Of a stretch of DNA of 58,683 nt, positions 24,848 to 32,869 are shown piece by piece. The DNA comes from Nitrospira japonica (lineage in GTDB: Bacteria > Nitrospirota > Thermodesulfovibrionia > Thermodesulfovibrionales > SM23-35). Position numbers and translations under genes: made by a program. How positions within the stretch are numbered: position 1 is the stretch's first letter; every line of letters starts with the position of its first letter. The notes below the pieces were generated by a model that was not told the origin of the DNA, did not search any database, and saw only the letters and a program-made list of their open reading frames with translations. The DNA lies in assembly GCA_020725385.1 (NCBI GenBank), contig DYFC01000013.1:1-58683 (forward strand), in the 5' to 3' direction.

Positions 24848-27403
24848 TCATCCGTTATTTTTTTGAATAACTTCTTTTATCTTATGTGAAAGCAATGATG
24901 GGGTTACAGGTTTGCTAAGAAATTCAAGTCCCTCGTCAAGAAGTCCTTTCCGGTGTATAATATCCGCTGTATAGCCACTTAAAAATATAGCTTTCGCATC
25001 GCCTTTTATTTTCTTTATTTCAATGAAAGTTTCCTTTCCATTCAAGCCCGGCATAATTAAATCAATTATGCATAGAAGAATTTTGTCTTTGTTTTCTGAA
25101 AATAGTTCAATAGCTTCCTTACCGTTTTTAGCTGTTAAAATATCATAACCAAAGTCTTCGAGCATTTCTGTAAGTGAATTCCTGACATCATCTTCATCCT
25201 CGACAAGCAAAAGTGTTCCTGTTCCTTTCTCATGTTCGGTAAATATTCTCTCTACAAGTTTAACATCCTTAATGGATATTAAAGGCAGATATATTCTAAA
25301 AGTACTGCCTTTGCCTTTTTCACTATAAACATTAATAAAGCCTTTGTGCTGTTTTATAATACCATAAACTATTGCCAGACCGAGTCCTGTGCCTTTGCCT
25401 ACTTCTTTTGTAGTGAAAAATGGTTCAAAAATTCTTTGACGTGTATTTTCATCCATCCCGATTCCTGTATCTGTTATAGTTATAACAACATAATCACCCT
25501 GTTTACCATATCCATGAGATTTTATGAATTCATTATCCATCTGTAATATATCGGTCTCGATAATTAATTGACCACCGTCTGGCATTGCATCTTTTGCGTT
25601 TGTAGCAAGATTCATTAGAACCTGCTCAATCTGTCCGGGGTCCGCCATTATAAATAATTCGGTTTCTTTAAGTATTGTCTTGAATATAATATCCTCTCCA
25701 ATTATTCTCATGAGGATGTTTTTCATATGAATTATTATTTCATTTACATTTACAGGTACGGGATTCATAATCTGCTTTTTGCTGAATGCGAGAAGATTTT
25801 TGGTTAAATTTGCTGCCTTATCGGACAAATCCAGGATGTTTTTTGCATAATTAATTAAAGGATTGTCTTCCCCGAGTTTCATTTTTAAGAAGTAAGCATA
25901 TGTAGTAACCGCTGTTAATATATTGTTAAAATCATGGGCAATTCCGCCTGCGAACTGACCGATTGCTTCCATCTTCTGAGCCTGAAGAAGTTGTTTATAA
26001 AGATTTTCCTTTTCGATTTCCGATTTTTTCCAGTCAGTAATATCAAGAAGCGAGACAATACTCTGACCGCTATCTGTAATCATTGCTGCGGTCACCACAA
26101 CATCTTTGATGTCACCTGATTTAATTTTAATCCGGGTTTCATAATTTCTTGGAACAGCATCAGGCTGAATTCTTCTCAAATCATGAAATTTTCTTAATTT
26201 ATCTAATTCTTCAACTGGTATAAATTCTGTCCAGCTTTTACCTATTATTTCCGAAGTTGAATAACCTGTGAGTTTTTCAACCTCGCTGTTTATAAGTGCG
26301 ATTTTGGTATCAGCTTCAATTATAAAAGTAGCATTCCCGGTATTCTCAAATATTGCCCTGTATTTTTCTTCTGATTTTTTTAATGCCTCTTCTGCTCTCT
26401 TATGTTCCTCCATATCCCGAAGAATATTATTTTGCCGCCATATCAGACAAAAGAATATTCCTGTGCCCGTTATCAAAATTGTTACTATGACTGTTACTAT
26501 CCAAAAAAGCTTTTTTACAGGTTCGTATATTTCTTCTTTGTCTGTTTTAGCAACAATAAACCATGGTGAGTCAGGAATTTGTTTGATTACTGCAATAACA
26601 GGGTTACCCCTGTAATCAATACCTTCAGCGATTCCCTTTACCCCGCGTAAAGCCATTGCTTCGGGTAATTGCGTCTCTTTTATTGAAAATCTTAATTTCA
26701 ACGCAGTATCTTTTCTGTGCCTGAGTTCATTTAAAAAAACTACGTTTTCATTTTCTCTCCGAAATAATACGGTTTCTGATGTTCTGCTTTTTGTTGGCCA
26801 TTTCTGGATTAATGGATATAAAAATGTATGAGGATTGATTCTTAAAATAAAGATTCCGGCAGGAACATTAATTTTTAAGGAAAATACAGGTATAACAAGG
26901 GTTAGACGGATTGTATTTAAAGCTTTGTTGTAATACAAATCGGATAAGATTATTTTTCGGGATTTAATTGATTCTTTTATTAAATCCTTTGCTCCCTGTC
27001 CTAATGTCTCTTTTATATTAGAAACCGAAAAAATTATATTATTGTTTTTGTCAACAAGAAATATACTCTGGTATTGATGAAGATTCAAGATGCTTTCTAA
27101 GAAGTAATAAAAGTTTTTTTTTGAGGGAATTCCCGGAGCCTTTGAAGTTAAATATTCAATTTCGGAAGCTATAGTAGGATTGTTATAAATAATCAGCGCA
27201 TCCGATAGTATTTCTTTGCGCCAATTTGTAATCTGTTCTGCTTTCAGTTCAGCAATTGCATTTAGATTTTCAAGGCTATTATATTTAATAATATTTTTTT
27301 GTTTTTGATAAAAAACATATCCTGTAGCCCATATGCAGATAGTAAGAATCAGAAAAATAAAGATTAATTTATATGGAACTTTATTTGTTAGAATATATTT
27401 CAT
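24848..27403 (-). CDS. Membrane hybrid sensor histidine kinase (sensor-PAS-HisKA-HATPase-REC)
   Basis: The 851-residue kinase has a first membrane helix at about 12-32, an extracytoplasmic sensor of about 260 residues and a second helix near 300-322. A PAS domain (about 343-455) follows, then HisKA with His at about 490 in GGIAHDFNN. The ATPase domain carries NLATNAKDAM, DTGIGMDEN and GTGLGLAIVYG. A C-terminal receiver has its Asp in IIDLIMPGLNG. Phosphate could pass from His to the attached receiver or to a separate regulator. It lies downstream of a NarL-type regulator gene, and a 19-bp palindrome sits about 45 nt before its start. The ligand cannot be inferred. Confidence 0.92.
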   Translation of the reverse strand: MKYILTNKVPYKLIFIFLILTICIWATGYVFYQKQKNIIKYNSLENLNAIAELKAEQITNWRKEILSDALIIYNNPTIASEIEYLTSKAPGIPSKKNFYYFLESILNLHQYQSIFLVDKNNNIIFSVSNIKETLGQGAKDLIKESIKSRKIILSDLYYNKALNTIRLTLVIPVFSLKINVPAGIFILRINPHTFLYPLIQKWPTKSRTSETVLFRRENENVVFLNELRHRKDTALKLRFSIKETQLPEAMALRGVKGIAEGIDYRGNPVIAVIKQIPDSPWFIVAKTDKEEIYEPVKKLFWIVTVIVTILITGTGIFFCLIWRQNNILRDMEEHKRAEEALKKSEEKYRAIFENTGNATFIIEADTKIALINSEVEKLTGYSTSEIIGKSWTEFIPVEELDKLRKFHDLRRIQPDAVPRNYETRIKIKSGDIKDVVVTAAMITDSGQSIVSLLDITDWKKSEIEKENLYKQLLQAQKMEAIGQFAGGIAHDFNNILTAVTTYAYFLKMKLGEDNPLINYAKNILDLSDKAANLTKNLLAFSKKQIMNPVPVNVNEIIIHMKNILMRIIGEDIIFKTILKETELFIMADPGQIEQVLMNLATNAKDAMPDGGQLIIETDILQMDNEFIKSHGYGKQGDYVVITITDTGIGMDENTRQRIFEPFFTTKEVGKGTGLGLAIVYGIIKQHKGFINVYSEKGKGSTFRIYLPLISIKDVKLVERIFTEHEKGTGTLLLVEDEDDVRNSLTEMLEDFGYDILTAKNGKEAIELFSENKDKILLCIIDLIMPGLNGKETFIEIKKIKGDAKAIFLSGYTADIIHRKGLLDEGLEFLSKPVTPSLLSHKIKEVIQKNNG

Positions 27404-27448
27404 TTAAGCCTATATTTTTTATTTTGCAGAAATTAATTCAATGAAAAC

Positions 27449-27467
27449 AATCAGGAAAATCCTGATT
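27449..27467. promoter_or_regulatory. Palindrome AATCAGGA-N3-TCCTGATT upstream of the hybrid kinase
   Basis: A perfect 8-bp dyad with 3-bp spacer (AAA) lies in the 122-bp gap between the NarL-type regulator and the hybrid kinase, 45 nt upstream of the kinase start. The identical dyad occurs at 29772-29790. This is the symmetric form expected for a dimeric LuxR/NarL-type DNA-binding domain. Confidence 0.6.
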
Positions 27468-27525
27468 AAAACGTATGAAAGTTCTAAAAATACGAGGACA
27501 TTCCGGAAGGGATGTATTTTAATAA

Positions 27526-28179
27526 TCAGGAATATAAATCGGTGATTCCTTCTTTGATTGCGTATTTTGTAAGCCTGGCTATGCTATTAATATTCAGTTT
27601 CTCCATGATCTGTTTTCTGAAAGTCTCAACAGTTTTCACACTGATGCCGAGTTTGTTGGCAATCTCTTTTGTATTATTGCCTTCCGCAATAAGTTTGAGA
27701 ACCTGAAATTGTCTTCTTGTCAGGATGGAATAGATTGATAATTCATTGGAATGTAAAATATTTTTATAGTCTTCGGCTGGATTATTAGAAATTCCCGGGC
27801 TCAGATATACTTTATTTTCAATAACAGAATTTATAGCACAGATTAATTCATCAAAAGCACAGTCTTTTAAGATATATGCTGAAGCTCCTGCTTTTAACAT
27901 GTCTGCCACATATTGTTTCTCGGAGTACATTGAAAGACAAATGATTTTTATCTTAGAATTTGCCTTTAATATTTGCTTTGTAGCGGTTATTCCATTAAGT
28001 TTTGGCATTGATATGTCCATAATGATAATATCCGGAGTAGTTTTTTTTGCCATTTTGATTACTTCTTCACCATTATCAGCCTCGCCAATAATTTCCGCTC
28101 CTTTAAATTTCTCAATCAATGAGCGGAGTCCCTGGCGTACAATTTTATGATCATCGGCAATAAGTATTTTAAGGTTCAT
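27526..28179 (-). CDS. NarL/FixJ-family response regulator 1
   Basis: The 217-residue protein has a receiver domain with phosphoacceptor Asp55 (IIIMDISMPKLNG) and a Lys switch near residue 105 (YILKDCAF). A C-terminal LuxR helix-turn-helix (LTRRQFQVLKLIAEGNNTKEIANKLGISVKTVETFRKQI) follows. ATG 28179 overlaps the stop of the HisKA_3 kinase by 4 nt, so this pair is a two-component system. It is closely related to the regulator at 29855, suggesting duplication. Confidence 0.93.
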   Translation of the reverse strand: MNLKILIADDHKIVRQGLRSLIEKFKGAEIIGEADNGEEVIKMAKKTTPDIIIMDISMPKLNGITATKQILKANSKIKIICLSMYSEKQYVADMLKAGASAYILKDCAFDELICAINSVIENKVYLSPGISNNPAEDYKNILHSNELSIYSILTRRQFQVLKLIAEGNNTKEIANKLGISVKTVETFRKQIMEKLNINSIARLTKYAIKEGITDLYS

Positions 28180-28823
28180 GTGCGCTCTTTTTTAAAGTTT
28201 ATCTCCTGCAAAGGAATTATAATGGTAACGCATGTTCCCATATCTTTGCCTGATTGTATTTTTAATGAGCCGCCGAGATATTCTATTCTTTCCCGGATGT
28301 TAAACAATCCAAAACTGATATTTTTATTTATCTTATCAGAGAGATCTGAAATATCAAAACCTTTGCCACGATCCTTAACTCTAACGAGAATTCTTTTTTT
28401 ATTTATATGTATTTTAACCGATGCTTTTTTAATGTGTGCATGTTTAACTACATTCCTGAGAAGCTCGCGTAATGATTGAAAAAGGACTATTTTAATGTCT
28501 TCGCTAAGGGGAATTGACTTAATATTACTGCTTATCTTAAGAGTGAGTCCATATTTTGTCCGGAATTTCTCAGCGAGCCAGTTAACCGCTGCATCGAATC
28601 CAAGTTCATAAAGTATGGGGGGACTAAGCTCGAATGTTAAGGTGCGTGAGCATAATATTGCTTCATCGATAAGCTTGGTTAATAAAGAAAGTTCTTTCTT
28701 ATGAGGACATCGATACGCAGAAGACTGAATCTCGCCTATTTTCATCTTGATTACAGCAAGGGTATGACTTATGTTGTCGTGTATTTCACCTGCAATTCGC
28801 CTGCGTTCCTTTTCTTCTGCCAT
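28176..28823 (-). CDS. NarX-type histidine kinase core (HisKA_3 and HATPase), frame-shifted from its PAS part
   Basis: The 215-residue frame carries the HisKA_3 helix with His15 (RRIAGEIHDNISHT) and an ATPase domain (LRELLRNVVKHAH, VKDRGKGFD, GLFNIRERIEYLGG). Dimerisation and catalytic regions appear complete, but the frame has no upstream start with a ribosome-binding site. Translation in the same frame runs open back to the A9 tract at 28926-28934, giving TGAIDITEPKKREEE and a coiled linker. That joins exactly to the PAS protein if one A is skipped. It is therefore most likely the C-terminal half of one kinase. Confidence 0.85.
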   Translation of the reverse strand: MAEEKERRRIAGEIHDNISHTLAVIKMKIGEIQSSAYRCPHKKELSLLTKLIDEAILCSRTLTFELSPPILYELGFDAAVNWLAEKFRTKYGLTLKISSNIKSIPLSEDIKIVLFQSLRELLRNVVKHAHIKKASVKIHINKKRILVRVKDRGKGFDISDLSDKINKNISFGLFNIRERIEYLGGSLKIQSGKDMGTCVTIIIPLQEINFKKERT

Positions 28824-28902
28824 TGCAAGTGAAGATGTAAGGGCTTTTAATTGTGACTGGTACCTAAAAATCTCTTCTTCACGCTTTTTAGGCTCTGTTA
28901 TA

Positions 28903-29712
28903 TCAATCGCTCCTGTAATGATATATTTTTTTTTCTCCTATTGTTAGTATGTCGGAGTATATTAGATGTTTAAGAGGCTTTCCCGATTTAGTCTGGGCGG
29001 ATACTTCCATGTTATAAATGTGTTTTTTCTTTCTTAATTTATCGATAAAATATTTTCTTCTTTTGCAGCTTTTCCATATAATGTCCTTGGATGAACGGCC
29101 AATAAGTTCTTTTCTGCTGTATTCAAATAATTTTAGGAAAGCCTTGTTAACGTCAATAAAAATACCATTTTCAAAGTCCGTGATCGCAATCGGGAGTGGC
29201 ATCATTTGAAATATCTTTACAAACTTTTTTTCGGAGTAACGCATAGCTTCTTCTGCCATTTTTTGATTTGTGATATCACGTGCAATTGACTGGAATTCAA
29301 CCAGACGTCCCTTTCTATCTTTGATAGGAACATTATTCCATTGTAACCATCTTGTTGAACCATCCGCTCTTTTAACTTTATTTTCACGGGTTATTATTTT
29401 AGGATGTATGGAAAGATGTTTGTAGAATTCAATTACTTTTTTACTGTCTGTGTTTCCGGATAACAGTGATGTCCACTTTTTCCCGACAAGCTCCTGCTTT
29501 TTTTTGCCAAAAAATTTTGAGTACGCATTATTTACATAGGTAATCGTTGTATCGGGTAGCCATTTGCAAATTGGCTCGGGTTGTGTTTCTATCATGGTTC
29601 GATATTTTTGTTCACTTTCTTTCAATATTGAGAGCCTGGTTCGCAAAATATCCAGATCTTTAATTAGTTTTTCAATATGTTTCTGTCCGTGCTTCATAAT
29701 ATACTTTATCAT
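28903..29712 (-). CDS. PAS-PAS sensor half of the NarX-type kinase, ended early by a frameshift
   Basis: The 269-residue soluble protein contains a short coil, then two PAS domains (about 33-150 and 160-260). The second stops within its last strand at GEKKIYHYRSD. Skipping one base in the A9 run (28926-28934) replaces this with GEKKYIITGAIDIT and continues into the kinase core, so the full protein would be about 511 residues. Whether the shift is real, programmed or a sequencing error cannot be told here. It starts at ATG 29712, divergent from the second NarL-type regulator, with a palindrome between them. Confidence 0.8.
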   Translation of the reverse strand: MIKYIMKHGQKHIEKLIKDLDILRTRLSILKESEQKYRTMIETQPEPICKWLPDTTITYVNNAYSKFFGKKKQELVGKKWTSLLSGNTDSKKVIEFYKHLSIHPKIITRENKVKRADGSTRWLQWNNVPIKDRKGRLVEFQSIARDITNQKMAEEAMRYSEKKFVKIFQMMPLPIAITDFENGIFIDVNKAFLKLFEYSRKELIGRSSKDIIWKSCKRRKYFIDKLRKKKHIYNMEVSAQTKSGKPLKHLIYSDILTIGEKKIYHYRSD

Positions 29713-29771
29713 TTTTATCCGTTTGATTCATATCAAAGCTTAAAAAAGACTCAGGAAATTAGCAAATGTAA

Positions 29772-29790
29772 AATCAGGAATATCCTGATT
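29772..29790. promoter_or_regulatory. Palindrome AATCAGGA-N3-TCCTGATT in the divergent kinase/regulator promoter
   Basis: A perfect dyad with spacer ATA sits nearly midway between the two divergent start codons, 59 nt from the kinase ATG and 64 nt from the regulator ATG. It matches the 27449-27467 site in both arms. A shared operator for an autoregulated NarL-type system is the simplest reading. Confidence 0.6.
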
Positions 29791-29854
29791 GTTATTATGC
29801 AGGCATATTAATTAAGATAAAAACAATTTAAAATTAATTCTTTTATCAAAAAAT

Positions 29855-30496
29855 ATGACGAAGATCCTCATTGCCGATGACCACAAACTTTTCCGTGAAG
29901 GCCTAAAAGCCTTAATTGAGAAAAATCCTGAAATGCAGGTAATTGCCGAGGCAGGGGATGGAAGAACAGCGGTGAAACTGGCGCGCGAATTAAAGCCGGA
30001 TGTAGTTTTCATGGATATTTCAATGCCCGGGCTTAACGGGATTGAAGCAACAAGGCAAATAATAAGCGAAGTGCCGTCTGTGAAAATTATAGCTCTATCA
30101 ATGTATTCAAACAAAAATTTTGTTGTTGAGGTAATAAAGGCAGGAGCTTCAGGTTATATACTCAAAGATTGCCCTTTTACCGAATTAATAGATGCCATAA
30201 ATTCTGTTGCCAGGAATAAGACATATCTTAGCGATCTGGTTACGGATGTAGTTGTAAAAAATTTTATACGGGGTTCCGGAAAGGAAGAATCAATATTTGG
30301 AGTTCTTACTTCCCGGGAAAAAGAAGTGCTTCAGCTTATTGCCGAAGGGAAAAATACGAAAGAGATAGCCAGTATCCTTTATTTAAGCACAAAGACTGTT
30401 GAGACATACAGAAAGCGTATCATGATAAAACTTAATATCTTCAATATCGCTGGATTAACTAAATATGCTATTAAAGAAGGTATTACTCCTGTATGA
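29855..30496 (+). CDS. NarL/FixJ-family response regulator 2
   Basis: The 213-residue regulator has phosphoacceptor Asp54 (VVFMDISMPGLNG) and YILKDCPF in the receiver. Its LuxR-type DNA-binding domain reads LTSREKEVLQLIAEGKNTKEIA. It is strongly similar along its length to the regulator at 27526-28179. It is divergent from the PAS kinase and has no adjacent kinase on its own strand, so both regulators may be partners of the same kinases. Ribosome-binding signal is weak. Confidence 0.93.
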   Translation: MTKILIADDHKLFREGLKALIEKNPEMQVIAEAGDGRTAVKLARELKPDVVFMDISMPGLNGIEATRQIISEVPSVKIIALSMYSNKNFVVEVIKAGASGYILKDCPFTELIDAINSVARNKTYLSDLVTDVVVKNFIRGSGKEESIFGVLTSREKEVLQLIAEGKNTKEIASILYLSTKTVETYRKRIMIKLNIFNIAGLTKYAIKEGITPV

Positions 30497-30545: not shown

Positions 30546-30747
30546 ACAGTTTGAGAGGTTGCTTTCTACTCTTTTCATTTCAGTTTAATAAAGGTCTGAT
30601 TTAATCGAGATAATTTTATAACGAAACTCACCTTTAGTTTTTCTTAACCCCTCAGGATTTTCGTAAGTGAAAATCAGTTTCCTCCCTATATATCTTTTTT
30701 TGTTTTTTTACGATGAATAAATCAACAGGAAAAGAAAGGAGGTGCAC

Positions 30748-31197
30748 ATGAATACAGCATCCGTCAATAAAGAGGTTTTGCAGCTTGTATCTTTTAATCT
30801 CGGACAGGAAGAATATGCTGTGGATATACTCAAAGTTCAGGAAATCAATCGCCTTGTGGATATAACATCCATGCCAAATTCACCTTTTTATATGGAAGGT
30901 GTAATCAATCTCAGAGGAAAAGTAATACCTGTAATTAACCTCAGAAAAAAATTTGGACTCGAAAATAGGGAAATGGATTCACATTCAAGAATAATCGTTG
31001 TAGATGTAGGAGAGACTATAGGCTTAATAGTGGATTCCGTATCCGAGGTTTTAAGACTGTCTTCCGATACAGTTGAGCCGGCCCCCGAGATGATAACATC
31101 CGAATGCTCTTCGGAATATATAAAAGGAGTTGGTAAGCTCGAAGACAGACTTTTAATTTTACTTGATATTGAAAAGCTCCTGAATAGCAAGAATTAA
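30748..31197 (+). CDS. cheW: CheW chemotaxis coupling protein
   Basis: The 149-residue SH3-like scaffold couples chemoreceptors to CheA. The family pattern is visible in LVSFNLGQEEYAVDILKVQEI, MPNSPFYMEGVINLRGKVIPVINLRKKFG and GLIVDSVSEVLRL. ATG 30748 has a strong AAAGGAGG ribosome-binding site 5 nt before it; GTG 30742 lies inside that site. It sits 40 nt before a chemoreceptor gene. No cheA, cheY or cheR is in the window, so the pair depends on a distant core. Confidence 0.95.
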   Translation: MNTASVNKEVLQLVSFNLGQEEYAVDILKVQEINRLVDITSMPNSPFYMEGVINLRGKVIPVINLRKKFGLENREMDSHSRIIVVDVGETIGLIVDSVSEVLRLSSDTVEPAPEMITSECSSEYIKGVGKLEDRLLILLDIEKLLNSKN

Positions 31198-31237: not shown

Positions 31238-32869
31238 ATGCTTAAAAATATGACAGTTAAAATGCAATTGAGCGCTGGTTTTGGAATAGTAATTGTTATG
31301 CTTCTTATAATATCGGCTATATCAGTTTTGGGATTAAGATCGCTGGATAACGATATAAACATAGTGGTTGACGATAGATGGCCAAAAACAGTTTGGGCTA
31401 ACGACATTATTGCCAATATCAATATTGTAGCAAGGGCTTTGCGAAATGCTATTTTACAGGATGACAGGACTGAAATTCAGAAGGAAATCGGAAGAATAGG
31501 GGAATCAAGAGAAAAAATTACAGGTGATATTGAAAGTCTTCAAAAAACTGTGAAATCTGAACAGGGCAAAGAACTGATGAAAAAAATAACAGAAACAAGA
31601 AACGCATATCTACAGGAACAGAATGCAGTAATTAACGCAATTAATAATAATAAGAAAGAAGATGCAAAGAAGTTGCTTTTTTCCAGATTGAGACCTGTGC
31701 AGGCAACATATATACAGGCTGTTGAGGATTTAATTAAGTATCAGGGTTCATTGATGGAAGAAGCCGGAAAATCGACGACTAAAGATGCGCACAAACTTAC
31801 TGTTATTATTCTTGTTCTCGCAGTTGTAGCAATTATTATTGCTACAGGTGTTTCGTTAATGATAACGAGAAAATTAATGAGACAACTTGGAGGCGAGCCC
31901 CATGTTATTTCAGAGATTGCAAAAAAGGTAGCAGATGGTGATTTAACGATTAATTTTGGTTCGGAAAGTAAAGAACTGACGGGCATATATGCTGCGATGA
32001 AGAATATGACGGATAAACTTAAAGAGATTGTAGCGAAGGTAAAATCTTCATCGGATAATATGGCGTCGGCAAGTCATGAACTTTCTGCAAGCGCCGAACA
32101 AATGTCGAGAGGAGTTACAGAGCAGGCTGGAAGAGCATCACAGATTGCGACTGCTGCTAATGAAATGTCACAGACAGTTGTGGACATAGCAAAAAATTCT
32201 TCCAATATCTCATCTTCTGCCGGCCATACAGCAAAGATTGCGGATGAAGGAAGGCAGATTGTTACAAAATCAGTAGAAGAAGTTAAGGCAATAGCAGAAA
32301 CTGTAAATGAATCTGCAAAATTAATGTTTTCTCTTGGTGAGCGTTCAAAACAGATTGGAGAGATTGTAAATGTGATTAAAGATATAGCAGACCAGACTAA
32401 TCTGCTTGCCCTAAATGCAGCTATAGAGGCTGCTAGAGCAGGAGAACAGGGCAGAGGATTTGCTGTTGTAGCTGACGAGGTTAGAAAATTGGCTGAGAGG
32501 ACCGCAAAAGCAACATCAGAGATAAGCAATATGATCGGTTCGATTCAGGAGGAAATGGACAAGGCGGTTGTCTCGATGGAAGATGGAACGAAAAGAGTTG
32601 AAATAGGTGTCGAATTCTCGGCGCAAGCTGGAGAATCTCTCGGTAAAATTGTCGAAAGTGTTGGCGAATTGCAGACCATGATCCAGCAGATAGCAACTGC
32701 TACAGAAGAAATGTCAACTGCATCAGAGCAGATTAGCGGTGATATTGAAACAATTGCAAATGTATCAAAAGAAACATCTGTAAGTTCGGAACAGGTCTCA
32801 CAGGCATCATCGGATCTTTCAAGACTCGCGGGTGATTTACAGAAAGTAGTCGGGATGTTCAGAATGTAA
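31238..32869 (+). CDS. Methyl-accepting chemotaxis protein
   Basis: The 543-residue receptor has membrane helix 1 (about 10-32), a periplasmic four-helix-bundle domain (about 35-185), helix 2 (about 188-208), HAMP, and a cytoplasmic coiled coil. The tip contains [20 protein letters not shown] and [17 protein letters not shown], the conserved kinase-contact hairpin. Gln/Glu-rich methylation regions flank it. GGAGG precedes ATG 31238. It pairs with cheW; the ligand is unknown. Confidence 0.95.

Follow-up and report, generated by a model that had tools for sequence, protein, structure and literature searches.

Genes and palindromes of the signaling island

The window, a stretch of 58,683 nucleotides, carries a signaling island in which two NarL-type response regulators, RR1 and RR2, are encoded among kinase and chemotaxis genes and predicted operators (Table 1). 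RR1 and RR2 both match Response_reg and GerE above the curated Pfam cut-offs, giving the NarL/FixJ layout, and are 57% identical, as expected of the two closely related LuxR-HTH regulators that the original prediction had placed here. A recent duplication giving RR1 and RR2 was set aside, as the subfamily tree does not resolve them as sisters, though they may still be duplicates. A HisKA_3-type partner kinase is also present, with HisKA_3 and HATPase domains in an ORF at 28176-28823; the frame of this PAS sensor kinase is split in this assembly, and its coding sequence is divided between two frames, 28903-29712 and 28176-28823, which join at an A9 run near 28930. Homologs of the kinase are open in relatives, and the frameshift at the nine-A run (minus strand, window 28903-28950) might stem from an error in the assembly, from phase variation at this tract or from a genuine break.

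Table 1. Genes and predicted operators of the island, in window coordinates.
Feature	Position	Strand	Basis or remark
Hybrid histidine kinase (dCache-like, PAS, HisKA, HATPase, receiver)	24848..27403	-	Pfam; putative operator 1 target
Composite operator 1 (predicted)	27446..27490	-	Towards hybrid kinase; strong dyad 27449-27467, weak upstream half about 27474-27488
RR1, NarL-type response regulator (Response_reg + GerE)	27526..28179	-	Pfam, subfamily tree
PAS-PAS-HisKA_3-HATPase sensor kinase	28176..29712	-	ORFs, Pfam, three-frame translation
Composite operator 2 (predicted)	29749..29793	+	Towards RR2; strong dyad 29772-29790
RR2, NarL-type response regulator (Response_reg + GerE)	29855..30496	+	Pfam; putative operator 2 target
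Third operator (predicted), before cheW-mcp	30649..30693	+	Matrix score
cheW	30748..31197	+	Pfam CheW; predicted operator 3 target
Methyl-accepting chemotaxis protein gene, 3' of cheW	31238..32869	+	Pfam MCPsignal, 4HB_MCP_1

The dyad AATCAGGA-N3-TCCTGATT occurs exactly at 27449-27467 and at 29772-29790, and the three central bases (AAA versus ATA) are the sole difference between the copies; the 19-bp palindromes originally reported are thus exact at both coordinates. Their placement also agrees: the 27449 copy lies 45 nt 5' of the hybrid-kinase ATG (27403, minus strand), and the 29772 copy is at the center of a 142-nt divergent gap between the starts of the PAS kinase (29712, minus) and RR2 (29855, plus). 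Outside the operator the two copies have no common sequence. Searching the whole genome (G000; 2,463,613 bases in 71 contigs) revealed no other exact copy. One copy with a single mismatch (C10:19858) has no long ORF at its position and a transposase-like gene nearby, and all seven copies with two mismatches fall within coding sequence; none of these one- and two-mismatch copies is at a comparable promoter. Chance is excluded as the source of the pair, because sixteen fixed bases recur in two intergenic copies 2.3 kb apart. The genome-wide count also contradicts a scattered repeat or REP, and the pattern that would have spoken against the original prediction, dyads strewn over unrelated loci, is absent. 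A lone half-site, AATCAGGAATA, at window 27523-27533 overlaps the 3' end of RR1 and is probably due to chance.

The palindrome is the strong half of a composite site

Orienting the flanks of the sites with the downstream gene at right revealed an upstream element, T[C/A]AGGTTTTTCSAA, and with it a composite site of ~40 bp, T[C/A]AGGTTTTTCSAA-N7-AATCAGG-N5-CCYGATTG, of which the dyad is the strong half. The TCAGG of the upstream element, a weaker half-site, lies 22 nt 5' of the TCAGG of the dyad; most of the 26 sites have TCAGG at -20 and +2 relative to the dyad, forming inverted half-sites with a two-turn period of ~22 bp. GG is found at -17/-16 in 23 of the 26 sites, and a G directly follows the dyad in 81%. 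The site is usually intergenic, just 3' of a NarL/FixJ regulator gene of one subfamily and 5' of the next operon. In a sequence scan, -10-like hexamers often followed the dyad by about 20-22 nt, which would center it near -44. Two paralogous loci in another genome (G005; L289 5930, L290 1415) have a dyad spacer longer by one base, TCAGG-N6-CCTGATT, an even-centered form that is closer to BvgA sites.

We scored sites with profile R1, a sequence profile of 24 training sites picked near regulators. Composite operators 1 and 2 scored 27.9 bits (E=5e-6) and 27.2 bits (E=8e-6) in the whole genome, and the profile gave the sites direction: the 27449 copy points at the hybrid kinase, the 29772 copy at RR2. 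Both upstream halves are weak, that of operator 2 (TCAGGAAATTAGCAAAT, about 29751-29767) being one base off register. The predicted third operator, 57 nt 5' of the cheW ATG, reverses this balance relative to the other two, with a near-perfect upstream half, TCAGGATTTTCGTAAG, and a degenerate dyad, AATCAG-TTTCC-TCCCTAT. A matrix from which the window sites had been left out scored it at 21.6 bits, against a maximum of 16.8 bits in a 4-Mb Markov background. The genome-wide profile search found it as a weak, local match only (E=0.12), and it therefore stays a prediction, one supported by the MCP genes that follow the site in relatives (L210, L211 and, by sequence, probably L057). Other profile matches in the same genome (C29, C26, C37, C56), considered as further targets, scored 14-16 bits, near noise. 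Three features go beyond the original prediction: the weak half-operator 22 nt upstream, the additional site 5' of cheW and the frameshift in the PAS histidine kinase.

The site tracks one regulator subfamily

We sought close homologs of RR2 and RR1 in the family, the order and the phylum, and in named further genomes, most of those compared being draft MAGs. Dyads with 0-3 mismatches lie between genes, right beside RR homologs, in several families and many genera of the order, in other classes and families of Nitrospirota, and outside the phylum in a Gemmatimonadota MAG (L051) and an uncultured lake-sediment bacterium (L053); a weaker dyad, with 4 mismatches, lies beside the RR homolog of a Geobacteraceae MAG (L057). 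Of the 177 genomes of the order, 22 have the refined dyad, AATCRGG-N5-CCYGATT: 11 among the 22 genomes with the regulator gene and 11 among the other 155 (Fisher p 2.5e-6), and the latter 11 are of the order of chance expectation (roughly estimated at about 6). Profile R1 matched at E<=1e-4 in 18 of the 22 regulator genomes and 0 of the 155 others (Fisher p 4e-21); the positive side of this count is partly circular because the training sites were picked near regulators.

Leave-one-out scores and matches outside the training set provide checks free of this circularity. At 26 of 38 subfamily loci the leave-one-out score was 18 bits or more, versus 0 of 18 loci of other NarL-type paralogs. Of the matches outside the training set, that in G019 is flanked by two tandem regulators, those in G182 and G390 come directly after a regulator gene, and others precede a cytochrome gene (G102) and a receiver-kinase pair (G005:C229); in G437 a further match lies downstream of a NarL-type regulator that falls outside the subfamily clade in the tree. 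No site was found near several subfamily members, among them those in G292, G331 and G346 and some outside the phylum. Homolog and profile searches of a genome of the same genus (G001) found neither a close regulator nor a site, and the module is therefore patchy. One genome (G390) has three strong operator copies within about 20 kb (L287 4210 and 6512; L288 5026), two of which flank an IS110-like transposase gene.

Putative targets in relatives

The tree resolved a supported subclade of 13 regulators (support 99/92) whose site is usually 5' of an operon for a URO-D/MtaA-like methyltransferase, a CobW-type GTPase and CbbQ/NorQ, several of these near CO dehydrogenase. This operon follows the operator at L202-L206, L208, L209, L214, L220-L223 and L300; it also encodes a long protein that, in the single member searched, matched no Pfam family at 1e-8, and in several cases lies near CO dehydrogenase and DUF1638 genes. 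Two genomes (G063, G085) have the site before the methyltransferase operon at a distance from the regulator gene. Elsewhere the site precedes genes for a molybdopterin oxidoreductase with a chaperone-like protein (L212), a Crp-type regulator near hydrogenase-maturation genes (L218), ATP sulfurylase/APS kinase (L228), an ammonium transporter (L053), an NtrC-type regulator (L201), and sensors or receivers (L199, L200). These downstream operons are candidate regulon members by their position.

Alternative explanations for the palindrome

Because the site often lies 40-300 nt 3' of a regulator gene, the dyads might be hairpins of intrinsic terminators that end the regulator genes. On the minus strand the 27449 copy forms a stem of 9 pairs with TTTTC after it, and both copies pass a simple terminator scan. 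Nevertheless, a run of at least 5 T among the 8 bases that follow the stem is confined to 6 of 26 sites, and the 29772 copy occupies a gap between divergent starts, a place that calls for no terminator. Sites at G063:C21, G085:C24:63361 and G046:C210 precede operons apart from any regulator gene, and the conserved element 22 nt upstream is outside the hairpin. We consider termination quite improbable.

That the repeat is a mobile or REP-like element without regulatory function is barely credible: a transposase-like gene does follow one homologous site (L198), and the one-mismatch copy lies near a transposase-like ORF, but just two exact copies exist in 2.46 Mb, these share no sequence beyond the operator, and the position beside one gene family is conserved across phyla. 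Binding by some other protein, with incidental linkage to the neighboring NarL-type regulators, is unlikely, albeit consistent with the unrelated functions of genes behind several sites, and binding by RR1 or RR2 is itself a prediction. Against an unrelated binder, the presence of strong sites goes with that of the regulator in each genome, paralogous NarL-type loci lack the site, and a symmetric dyad with a 22-bp tandem period is typical of NarL-type dimers.

A predicted autoregulatory circuit

We conclude that one NarL/FixJ subfamily, represented here by RR1 and RR2, very probably has a tandem operator whose high-affinity half is the palindrome, and that these regulators would activate their target promoters. 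Comparative genomics thereby lends strong support to the originally proposed operator shared by the adjacent NarL-type regulators. RR1, RR2 or both are putative binders, as the tree singles out neither. The island very probably controls its own hybrid kinase and second regulator, and the predicted circuit probably also includes cheW-mcp. Regulator dimers would bind in tandem on one DNA face next to the -35 region, with the downstream dimer abutting -35 and helping RNA polymerase to start transcription; this would switch on RR2, the hybrid kinase and probably cheW-mcp, making a positive-feedback signaling island. In relatives, the same site would serve CODH/corrinoid, molybdoenzyme, chemotaxis or kinase operons. 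The likely mode of control is activation with positive autoregulation, because the predicted architecture equals that of BvgA and resembles that of DevR, and because -10-like hexamers often follow the dyad; repression by the regulator at the site is the less likely sign of control.

A broader reading, on which we are evenly divided, is that the site marks a patchy regulator-operator module: a NarL-type subfamily with an odd-centered tandem operator and no characterized member, attached in different lineages to varied genes (CODH/corrinoid-methyltransferase, molybdoenzyme, cytochrome, ammonium-transport, sulfate-activation, chemotaxis and kinase genes) and forming a regulon readable from sequence. 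We found no earlier description of the composite motif in the open-licence literature, where matches to the motif letters were only chance, and nothing relevant there on Nitrospirota or CODH regulation; a paper mapping D. vulgaris response regulators includes NarL-type regulators and has no text match to the motif. Most response regulators, above all in uncultured phyla, lack a known binding site, and here the sequence by itself yields a site, its regulator subfamily and candidate target operons in dozens of genomes. Binding to the site by one homolog from a single-regulator genome, if true, would assign a regulon across Nitrospirota, and the subclade site before corrinoid-methyltransferase operons near CO dehydrogenase is a first hint at the signal.

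Comparison with known systems

By sequence, the closest solved full-length structures are VraR (5hev, E=6e-37), DevR (3c3w, E=4e-34) and NarL (1a04, E=1e-33). VraR and NarL share the receiver-GerE layout and a HisKA_3-type kinase partner, whereas their published sites do not match the dyad; NarL sites are heptamers arranged 7-2-7. DevR/DosR boxes are of the GGGACT type, unlike the dyad described here. The likeness to DevR/DosR of Mycobacterium lies in the arrangement: this autoregulated NarL-type activator uses Dev boxes with a primary and a weak secondary site, the latter of which fills through cooperativity, and its proximal site overlaps -35 (PMC3029386).

The closest parallel in architecture is BvgA, a Bordetella regulator of the NarL family that binds as head-to-head dimers on inverted half-sites with centers 22 bp apart on one DNA face, and whose operators combine one strong with further weak sites, the proximal dimer abutting -35 (PMC7250471). 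The 22-nt period is the same, the -35-abutting position equals that proposed here, and a published strong BvgA site, TAAGAAATTTCCTA, has a AGgAAATTTCCT-like core similar to our site. In contrast to BvgA, the dyad here is odd-centered (TCAGG-N5-CCTGA) and the strong dyad is typically the proximal one; organisms and target genes also differ.
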